Shown here one piece after another: positions 60,872-64,000 of a stretch of 64,000 nt of DNA. How positions within the stretch are numbered: the first letter of the stretch is position 1; every line of letters starts with the position of its first letter. The stretch comes from Sandaracinaceae bacterium. GTDB lineage: Bacteria > Myxococcota_A > Polyangia > Polyangiales > Sandaracinaceae. The notes below the pieces were generated by a model. It did not search any database. It saw only the letters and a program-made list of their open reading frames with translations, and had not been told where the DNA came from. Both the position numbers and the translations under genes were made by a program. Location: assembly GCA_040218145.1 (NCBI GenBank), contig JAVJQK010000044.1:1-64000 (forward strand), written 5' to 3'.

Positions 60872-61837
60872 CTATCCGGGGTCGTGGCCGTCGTACATCT
60901 GCCGAACCCAACCTCGGTTTCGGGTCCACCAGCGCTCGAGCCCCGCCGCGGAGGTGAGGCTCGATCGCGCGCTCCGCTTGGCAGCGAGCTCGGGGATGAG
61001 GCTCGCCTCGCGCCAGGCGGCGAGCCACTCGGAGAACGACGCGGCCCGGTGCTCGATCTCGCCGTCGCACAGCGCGACCACGATGTTCGGCTCCGCGTCC
61101 GCGAAGTCGAAGGCGAAGTACTCGTCGTCGCCGAAGCGAAAGAAGGGCATGAAGTCGCCGTCGGTCCGATCGGTGAGCCAGCTTCCCCGGTATAGGTGGT
61201 TCGTCACCGCCTTCGCCGGGAGGAGCACCGGGCCCAGGGGGGACCTGTCTCCGTCCTCGATGACCTCGATTCGCAGCGCGCCGACCTCCCGAAGAAACGT
61301 CAGGTAGTCGGCCGGCAGGTCGCGTCCGAAGCGCTCGCGCACCGTCTCCTCGAGCGCCTGGAGGTCGTGGGGCTTGGTGCGCGCCGTCGCGACGACGAGC
61401 GATGCGGCGGGGAGCAGGCCGCAGTGGTGGCGGATCGCGTCCACGAGATCCTGGTCGATGACCCGCCGGTCCTCGCACACGGTCCCCAGCCAGGCGGCGA
61501 ACCCTGCGGCGTCGAGCGTCGAGGCGGCTCGGCGCCGGCTGGGGCGGTCGGCCTCGAGGCACGTGGGCGACGCGGTCAGCTCGACCTCGCGTGCCTGGCC
61601 ACTGACGCTCTCGGCCAGGGCGAGCGCGAGCTCCTTCGCCAACCGGCGCTCCCACGCCGGGCTCTCGTCCCCGGGTGCGACGACGAGCAGCTCGGTCACC
61701 GCCCACGCCGGATCGACATGCGCGGAGATCGACGGGTCCGAGCGATCGACGCGGATCAACCGCGTCTGGCCGAGCGACAGCTCACCGAAGTCGCGCTTCG
61801 GCGGTGCGCCCTTGAAGCCGAGGACGAGCCAACTCAT
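60872..61837 (-). CDS. SMI1/KNR4-type domain protein
   Basis: 321 aa, no signal peptide. Residues about 185-300 match SMI1/KNR4 (SUKH): RDLPADYLTFLREVGALRI, then FMPFFRFGDDEYFAFDF and SEWLAAWREA. In bacteria such domains often act as immunity proteins for polymorphic toxins, but other roles exist. The N-terminal 170 residues (PAWAVTELLVVAPGDESPAWE) are unrecognised. The start is ATG 61837. The gene is bracketed by imperfect direct repeats, which suggests it moved as a unit. Confidence 0.75.
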   Translation of the reverse strand: MSWLVLGFKGAPPKRDFGELSLGQTRLIRVDRSDPSISAHVDPAWAVTELLVVAPGDESPAWERRLAKELALALAESVSGQAREVELTASPTCLEADRPSRRRAASTLDAAGFAAWLGTVCEDRRVIDQDLVDAIRHHCGLLPAASLVVATARTKPHDLQALEETVRERFGRDLPADYLTFLREVGALRIEVIEDGDRSPLGPVLLPAKAVTNHLYRGSWLTDRTDGDFMPFFRFGDDEYFAFDFADAEPNIVVALCDGEIEHRAASFSEWLAAWREASLIPELAAKRSARSSLTSAAGLERWWTRNRGWVRQMYDGHDPG

Positions 61838-61973: not shown

Positions 61974-62046
61974 GACCTGGCCCGGGATAGCGGCGTCGAG
62001 CGACCCGAGATATCCCGTGGCATGAACGCGTCCATGTTCGTCGCCA
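61974..62046. repeat. Right imperfect repeat flanking SMI1 gene
   Basis: Matches 60778-60845 imperfectly and includes the start codon (62022) and first codons of the next gene. The pair brackets the SMI1/KNR4 gene. Confidence 0.5.
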
Positions 62047-62561
62047 GCTGGAGCGACGTGCCGCTCCCTCGCGAGCATCTCGCTGCTCTCGTTCAGCGCT
62101 CGAGCGCGGACCGGTCCACCGAGGCGCCTTCTGGCTTCGCGCATCACGGCGTGGGGGGCGAAGCGCTCTCGAGCGAGCTCGCCCGCATGCTCTCGTGCCC
62201 CGCCTTCGACCAGGCCGCGAGCGCGACGTTCGTGCCCTGCGCGATCGAAGGAGGCGTCGAGCGCCACGAGATCGACGGCGCGGTCCACCTCGTGATCGGC
62301 GCCGAACACCTGCGCGCGTCCTGGCCGGCGGAGCGCGACGAAGCCTATCGACGCGCGGTCGCCGAGGCGTGTCGCGCCGTGCGGCGAGGCGCGCCTTCGG
62401 CGATGGAGCACGTGCTCTGGCTCGAGCACTTCCTCATCGAGCGGCTGCTGCGCGTGGCCGCCCCGCTGCGCCTCCCGGTCGTCATCATCTGGCCCGAGCG
62501 CCGCCCGTCGATCGAGCTCGAGCGCATGCTGGACGGCGCCCTGTCGAGCTGGGGCGATTGA
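62022..62561 (+). CDS. Protein of unknown function beside radical SAM gene
   Basis: 179 aa, no signal peptide and no family I recognise. It is mixed alpha/beta (AIEGGVERHEIDGAVHLVIGAEHLRASW; LRLPVVIIWPERRPSIELERML) with two Cys. The ATG at 62022 lies in the right repeat. The radical SAM gene starts 113 bp downstream on the same strand, so a functional link is possible but unproven. Confidence 0.5.
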   Translation: MNASMFVASWSDVPLPREHLAALVQRSSADRSTEAPSGFAHHGVGGEALSSELARMLSCPAFDQAASATFVPCAIEGGVERHEIDGAVHLVIGAEHLRASWPAERDEAYRRAVAEACRAVRRGAPSAMEHVLWLEHFLIERLLRVAAPLRLPVVIIWPERRPSIELERMLDGALSSWGD

Positions 62562-62674
62562 GCCTCCGCGACCGCGGCGCCCTCGCTGACTGCGCCGGCG
62601 CGTGCCGATGGAGGCCCGAGCCGGGGCCCCCGACCCTACTCGAGCCAACGCAAGCGGACTACCATGTTGAGGCC

Positions 62675-64000
62675 GTGAGACCCGCCGCCTACTCTCAGCT
62701 CCGAGCCCATCCGCTGGACGGGTCTCTGCTCCTCTTTCGCCCCTCGACCGGCGAGTCGCTCCGGATCGAGTCGCGCGCGACGAGACGCTTGCGAGCACAG
62801 GCGCCGCGCGCCGTCTTCGTGGGACTCTCGAACGCCTGCAACCTGAGGTGCGAGTTCTGCTCACGGGACGCGTCGATCCGGGAGCGCTGGGCGGCGAACG
62901 ACATGGTCGCCCTGCTCAGCGCCCTGGCCGAGGCGGGCACACTCGAGGTCGCGTTCGGCGGCGGCGAGCCGCTGGCCTACGCAGGCTTCCCGGAGCTGCT
63001 GGCGCGCCTCGCCGAGGAGACGCCCCTCGCGCTCCACTTGACCACGAACGGCACGCTCATCGACGACACGACGGTACGCGCTCTCGCTCCCCATGTGACC
63101 GAAGCACGCGTGTCGGTGTACGCGGAGACCGACTGGGCGACCGCCATGCGCCGGCTGGTCGACGCGGGTGTACGGACCTCCGCGAACTTGCTCGTCCAAG
63201 GTCAGATGCTCGCAGGGCTCCCGTCGATCCTCGACGAGCTCGCCGAAGTGGGGGTGGCTGACGTAGCGCTGCTGCGCCGAGTGGGAGGCGCGCAACTTTG
63301 GGGCGAGGAGTGGCTCACGCTCGAGCGGTGCGTCCGCGCGAGCCCGGTGCCGGTGAAGCTCTCGCGTTGCTTCGCCGACCGGATGCCGACGCTGCCACGG
63401 CTCTCGACGTCCTCCGACTGTGGCGCCGGCCGCGAATACCTCGTCATCGACCCCGACGCGCGCATCCGGCCCTGCTCGTTCCACGACGCCGGGTCGTCAT
63501 TCTCGAGTCCGGAGGAGCTCCTCGCCACGTATCGCGCCCTCCCGACAGCGTGGCGCGACCCGTCGACCCGCTCGGGATGCGCGCGTGCGGTGCCATTCCA
63601 GATCACCTCGCCGCCCGCGGGGCGAACGGCCACGGTGCGCGCCTACCAGGGCTACGCGTCGAACAACAGCGGCGACACCGTCCTGGTCGCGCGCTTCGTC
63701 GAGGCCAAGGAGGCGGCCGAAATCGTCGACGCTCTGCGAGGCGTCGATCCGGAGGTGCACCAACACGCGCTTCGCAGCTTCCTGCTCGCGGAGGGGTGCG
63801 ACCTCAGCGGTACCCACTGGGATGCGGAGCTCGCCTCGGTCGGAAGGATGCTCCTCGCCACGGGGTACGACCCCTCCGACGCGTTGGGCGCCGTCCGCGA
63901 GGTCGCGACGCGGCGCGGGGCCGAGGTGCTTCACTCGGCGGTCCACAGCCACGACCCGCCAACGCTGCTGATCGCGACGCAGGCTCGCGGCCCGGTCGAC
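62675..64000 (+). CDS. Radical SAM protein, cut by window end
   Basis: 442 codons to the edge with no stop. GTG at 62675 starts the frame. Residues 55-62 (CNLRCEFC, Cys 55, 59, 62) are the CxxxCxxC site for the SAM [4Fe-4S] cluster; GGGEPL (about 98) contacts SAM. Later Cys (SDCGAGREYLVIDPDARIRPCSF; SGCARA) look like a SPASM/twitch-type auxiliary cluster region. Residues about 320-442 are an extra domain (AYQGYASNNSGDTVLVARF; HSAVHSHDPPTLLIAT) that I do not recognise. SPASM enzymes often modify peptides. No precursor peptide is visible here. Confidence 0.85.
   Translation, partial: MRPAAYSQLRAHPLDGSLLLFRPSTGESLRIESRATRRLRAQAPRAVFVGLSNACNLRCEFCSRDASIRERWAANDMVALLSALAEAGTLEVAFGGGEPLAYAGFPELLARLAEETPLALHLTTNGTLIDDTTVRALAPHVTEARVSVYAETDWATAMRRLVDAGVRTSANLLVQGQMLAGLPSILDELAEVGVADVALLRRVGGAQLWGEEWLTLERCVRASPVPVKLSRCFADRMPTLPRLSTSSDCGAGREYLVIDPDARIRPCSFHDAGSSFSSPEELLATYRALPTAWRDPSTRSGCARAVPFQITSPPAGRTATVRAYQGYASNNSGDTVLVARFVEAKEAAEIVDALRGVDPEVHQHALRSFLLAEGCDLSGTHWDAELASVGRMLLATGYDPSDALGAVREVATRRGAEVLHSAVHSHDPPTLLIATQARGPVD

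Follow-up and report, generated by a model that had tools for sequence, protein, structure and literature searches.

The radical SAM gene at the edge of the window (the whole 64,000-nucleotide stretch analysed, G000:C44:1-64000, from a Sandaracinaceae contig that runs on to 78,623 bp) encodes an enzyme fused to a conserved partner, referred to here as the NNS domain. It is held with high confidence that the enzyme core and this domain form a real enzyme-partner pair, and linkage, fusion and co-occurrence show the NNS domain to be an obligate partner. The pair is proposed to function as a radical SAM modification enzyme in two parts, fused in the window, with the NNS domain serving as an obligate accessory at the active site (probability approximately 0.55). 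More tentatively, and at somewhat less than even odds, the pair may represent an undescribed superfamily in which a radical SAM enzyme and a DUF6375/NNS partner have been repeatedly fused and the partner loop lies at the radical active site, with one branch serving Avs2-like STAND sensors on mobile plasmids and the other, including the window gene, being self-contained in Myxococcota. The pairing of a radical SAM enzyme with an NNS/DUF6375 partner is undescribed; literature searches returned nothing for DUF6375, nor for Avs2 in combination with radical SAM and STAND. An apparently random extra domain thereby becomes part of a conserved enzyme-partner system, the Pfam family DUF6375 gains a predicted partner and a context, radical SAM chemistry other than that of viperin would be linked to STAND-type immune sensors, and the fused form, being a single polypeptide, offers a reagent for identifying the reaction.

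An earlier, sequence-only reading of the window had stated that the open reading frame leaves its end, and this was confirmed: the gene is complete on the contig, extending from a GTG codon at 62675 to a stop codon at 64693 (672 aa), and the window cuts it (Table 1). With this start, the earliest conserved positions in the family alignment (R10 and L14-D15) fall close to the N terminus. A scan of contigs for relatives of the gene gave a single return, a MAG of the same species (SHBB01000098.1; L038/L136), the radical SAM gene of which differs at three nucleotides; one of these differences places a stop codon at residue 274, and the window copy is intact. The sole Pfam finding in the protein is Radical_SAM (PF04055; E=3.5e-13, residues 51-143), and no Pfam family matches its C-terminal half. 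Single-sequence AlphaFold predictions were too poor for use with the full protein (pLDDT 44) and too poor for fold searches with the NNS domain (pLDDT 51).

Table 1. Features of the radical SAM locus and its upstream flank (contig coordinates)
Feature	Position	Strand	Basis or remark
SUKH-domain gene	60872-61837	minus	further upstream, opposite strand to radical SAM gene
Orphan gene of 179 aa, outside the system	62022..62561	+	without conserved linkage
Radical SAM and twitch core, residues 1-315	62675..63619	+	PF04055, alignment A1, family HMM
CxxxCxxC motif C55/C59/C62, predicted SAM-binding [4Fe-4S] cluster	62837..62860	+	invariant in A1
Auxiliary-cluster cysteines C232, C249, C267, C302, twitch-like	63368..63580	+	invariant in 45/45 type A proteins
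Fused partner (NNS domain), putative distant DUF6375 relative; extent approximate	63629..63964	+	NNS model, hhalign
Asn330-Asn331-Ser332 loop, invariant	63662..63670	+	literal NNS in 43/45 domains
His-x-His motif H424-S-H426	63944..63952	+	HxH in about two thirds of partner domains, at the matching place in DUF6375
Remaining C-terminal region, residues ~431-672	63965..64000, on to contig 64693 past the window	+	without Pfam family

The CxxxCxxC motif and the Radical_SAM domain place the protein in the radical SAM superfamily. Its core is 37-45% identical to relatives in alignment A1 and is scored at 420 bits by the family HMM in its own genome; ahead of the core, an N-terminal stretch, LDGALLLFDRxTGxNxL, is common to the family. 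The CxxxCxxC motif is invariant both in the 45 proteins of the window family (type A) and in all seven of a plasmid sister family (type B), and with the four auxiliary cysteines it accounts for the seven cysteines that are invariant across the 45 type A members. The SPASM domain carries a seven-cysteine motif, CX9-15GX4C - CX2CX5CX3C - C. Its first half, the twitch arrangement, is resembled by the core pattern CGAGxxFxxIxxDxxxxxCSF, and the four auxiliary cysteines fit a predicted one-cluster twitch pattern (C-x(n)-C plus a later C). Since only these four invariant cysteines follow the SAM motif, the initial assignment of the enzyme as SPASM/twitch-like is retained for the twitch-like half and not for a full SPASM domain. 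The same cysteines are present in none or one of the seven type B proteins, and therefore the chemistry of type B may differ from that of type A.

With NCBIfam, 60 radical SAM families were matched, none of them near its cut-off among the best 25, in agreement with the earlier view that the enzyme is unlike any known maturase. The SPASM/twitch enzymes MoaA, PqqE, BlsE and SkfB share the CxxxCxxC core and a twitch-like auxiliary region; the window family differs from them in its four-cysteine pattern and dedicated NNS partner, and it reaches no equivalog model.

The partner was recognized from the organization of related loci. Searching 56 relatives at the protein level yielded 15 matches with E<=2e-48, after which there was a gap to approximately 5e-13. 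Half of the newly found loci have a stand-alone core gene (about 335 aa) and, after it, a separate gene that begins like "MRIRLFRAFASNNSGSYTIVGTF". In the remaining half, to which the window belongs, this segment continues inside the core reading frame; in the window, the NNS model matches at 63632-63760 (E=2.3e-16). The extra C-terminal domain had been described as unrecognised, which holds with respect to Pfam, but the real partner proved to be this fused domain, which about half of the relatives encode as a separate adjacent gene.

A core profile search found 42 genomes among 289 of the class, and a search of the phylum added two with strong matches. In 43 of 47 core genes from Myxococcota (including one from the other MAG of the window species; the related-loci set numbers 45), the NNS domain is either fused or lies no more than 136 nt downstream. 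Of the exceptions, L115 has it one gene further, L119 directly upstream and L046 on another contig, and L135 runs off its contig. Searched alone in the same 289 genomes, the NNS domain was found in 44 as strong or truncated matches, and 41 of these are core genomes (Fisher p=5e-45, not corrected for relatedness). The only genome with a core alone, G206, has it at a contig edge; those with an NNS domain alone comprise an apparent remnant (G234) and two contig-edge cases (G193 and G251, the latter joined to the end of a core). Weaker NNS matches at L175 and L177-L179 were dismissed as chance, covering only model positions 14-41 and lacking the loop.

Among the first set of partners, the Asn-Asn-Ser sequence, one Leu and one Gly alone are invariant, making NNS the sole invariant contiguous motif, and this within domains of which the overall identity falls to 16-18%. 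One of the two domains without a literal NNS, of the 45 compared, is a truncated frame. Some 90-110 residues past the loop in about two thirds of partners is the HxH motif, which is missing from BRCT-type and some fused partners; its counterpart in DUF6375 is SAHxHP. The separate partners end in a domain like the C-terminal domain of ribosomal L7/L12 (PF00542, to E=1.5e-11) or in BRCT domains. The former was observed at L049, L041, L112 and L107; BRCT domains replace it in the partners of L052, L114, L122 and L128.

Invariance of the loop in a domain that otherwise diverges so far could also mean that the NNS domain serves as the substrate, with the radical SAM enzyme modifying its Asn-Asn-Ser loop, in cis when fused. 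Consistent with this, the domain practically never occurs without the enzyme, and the change of the loop from NNS to EHS in type B is accompanied by loss of the auxiliary cysteines. We consider this reading doubtful. The fused and separate states on the tree, counted by hand, imply that enzyme and partner became fused independently at least twice, and an accessory role is preferred for this reason, as such repeated fusion fits a stoichiometric accessory more easily than a single-turnover substrate; in addition, many partners conserve the HxH motif and carry extra C-terminal modules. For the preferred two-part enzyme, the N-terminal core would be expected from its radical SAM/twitch class to cleave SAM at the C55/C59/C62 cluster, while one auxiliary Fe-S cluster, held by the four invariant cysteines, may help to start radical chemistry on the substrate. 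The Asn-Asn-Ser loop is most likely at or near the active site, where it would position or recognise the substrate, and the variable C-terminal modules (L7/L12-like, BRCT and unassigned) may recruit the target.

Profile comparison and gene order suggest that the NNS domain is a distant homologue of DUF6375. Several NNS domains give sub-threshold matches to PF19902 at the same place; the window domain scores 12.5-13.5 bits and the best relative 21, below the gathering score of 27.5, and the only DUF6375 match in the 11-Mb window genome, a weak one (E=1.4), falls exactly on the NNS domain. Comparison of the C-terminal domain by profiles, which the sequence-only reading had advised, thus linked it to DUF6375 at the profile-profile level (hhalign probability 91%, E=9e-7, 124 columns with both ends matched), with single sequences remaining below the Pfam cut-off. 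The radical SAM profiles of types A and B likewise aligned over 276 columns (E=5e-33).

DUF6375 was found on 16 of 72,556 plasmids, and a sister radical SAM gene is adjacent on all 16; searching with the sister radical SAM enzyme returned the identical 16 plasmids. The DUF6375 query was a consensus sequence that matches PF19902 at E=1e-53, and annotated DUF6375 genes lie under the hits. At the five plasmid loci read, the DUF6375 gene comes after the radical SAM gene and overlaps it by 4 bp. A tree that included other radical SAM proteins grouped the window family as one clade (support 100/98) and the plasmid and viral family as another (100/100), the two being sisters with moderate support (85/81). 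The window family has the organization of a DUF6375-type pair, with the partner encoded together with a related radical SAM enzyme. The plasmid pair (Vibrio, Deinococcus, Synechococcus and Picosynechococcus) resembles that of the window family in the order of enzyme gene and partner gene, the end-to-end match of the partner profiles and the sister position of the enzymes; it differs in being unfused in the loci seen, in its [SA]EHS loop in place of NNS, in the loss of the auxiliary cysteines and in usually being followed by an Avs2-like STAND NTPase. Outside Myxococcota, sampling covered plasmids, phages, E. coli genomes and viral contigs; a tblastn search of plasmids with type A proteins returned nothing relevant, and the Vibrio pair had no match in the phage and E. 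coli collections.

The third gene of the type B loci suggests a context of biological conflict. Of five distinct plasmid loci, the four from Synechococcus, Deinococcus sp. QL22, Picosynechococcus and Vibrio have an Avs2-like STAND NTPase of approximately 1,300 aa in this place; at the fifth, in D. peraridilitoris, IS genes stand there instead. In one Myxococcota genome, too, the type B pair has a similar Avs2-like gene after it, truncated at the contig end or by its frame, and this locus also holds a match to the MADS mad8 model. Matches of the third gene to Avs2 models have E values of 1e-71 to 1e-113. The operon of radical SAM, DUF6375 and Avs2-like genes was observed at L182, L183, L184, L185 and L180, which belong to plasmids from Vibrio, Deinococcus and cyanobacteria and to the Myxococcota genome. 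On a viral contig (L084:3536-10728), DUF2971, DUF6375 (E=2e-11) and radical SAM genes lie beside those for type III restriction and a methylase, with the DUF6375 and radical SAM genes in reverse order. The known Avs1-Avs4 proteins are nucleases that sense phage packaging proteins (PMC12931631). An FtsH ternary conflict system with a radical SAM effector has been reported (PMC7159879). The third gene matches Avs2 (AVAST) models over about 900 aa, although mainly in their N-terminal two thirds. The operon is a candidate anti-phage system. Because the genes of the sister version occur together with those for Avs2-like STAND NTPases or next to restriction-modification genes, the module is probably part of the biological-conflict repertoire. 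Avs2 is not a neighbour in the window and no Avs-like gene recurs at type A loci; a defence role for the window gene would therefore derive from its relatives only.

The proximity of type B to Avs2-like genes could also suit a viperin- or BlsE-like enzyme acting on a small molecule, such as a nucleotide, which with its accessory domain would produce an antiviral or signalling metabolite. PADLOC models of prokaryotic viperins (pVip) do match both the window protein (E=5e-12) and type B (1e-19), and the best single-sequence match in the PDB is cytosylglucuronate decarboxylase. This reading is nevertheless judged unlikely: the matches lie mainly in the generic SAM-binding part, the window protein scores 36.9 bits with the prokaryotic viperin equivalog NF038283 against a cut-off of 180, and there are also matches to MoaA, PqqE and others. 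Prokaryotic viperins and the window family have the radical SAM core in common, and the sister family shares their defence context, but the viperin model remains far below its cut-off for the window protein, and viperins are not known to have an NNS-like partner domain.

Radical SAM enzymes of the SPASM/twitch class are commonly RiPP maturases, and partial matches were obtained to many maturase models, which would accommodate an enzyme acting on a small precursor peptide with the extra domain as its peptide-recognition element. It had further been supposed that the product and any peptide substrate might lie past position 64000. No small peptide gene is conserved beside the 45 loci, leaving the precursor-peptide idea unsupported, and no complete pathway follows downstream. 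As biosynthetic neighbours do not recur either, and no maturase model comes near its cut-off among the 25 listed, maturation of a RiPP is thought very unlikely. The downstream genes look like those for a membrane protein and GNAT-like, ATP-grasp-like and hydrolase-like proteins, and none of the four types recurs at other family loci. The possibility that the first 170 nt downstream hold a structured RNA was also rejected (z=-0.2).

The 179-aa gene upstream of the core, suggested earlier to be the partner, was rejected as such. Its single relative among 56 related genomes (G002; 43-52% identity) has no radical SAM family gene nearby, and the gene lies upstream of no other family member. It gives a sub-threshold match to DUF982 and, being near the SUKH-domain gene, is possibly immunity-like. 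Serine/threonine-kinase-like genes, near 11 loci, are the only widely recurring neighbour and were judged to be background, as they are abundant in the genomes concerned. The gene clusters of four loci belong to members of a single genus. A TPR-like gene (about 750-890 aa) directly follows the partner at three loci (L052:9887-12562, L114:1105-3687 and L128:7077-9317), and its product at L052 bears a lysine/threonine-rich, histone-H1-like tail.
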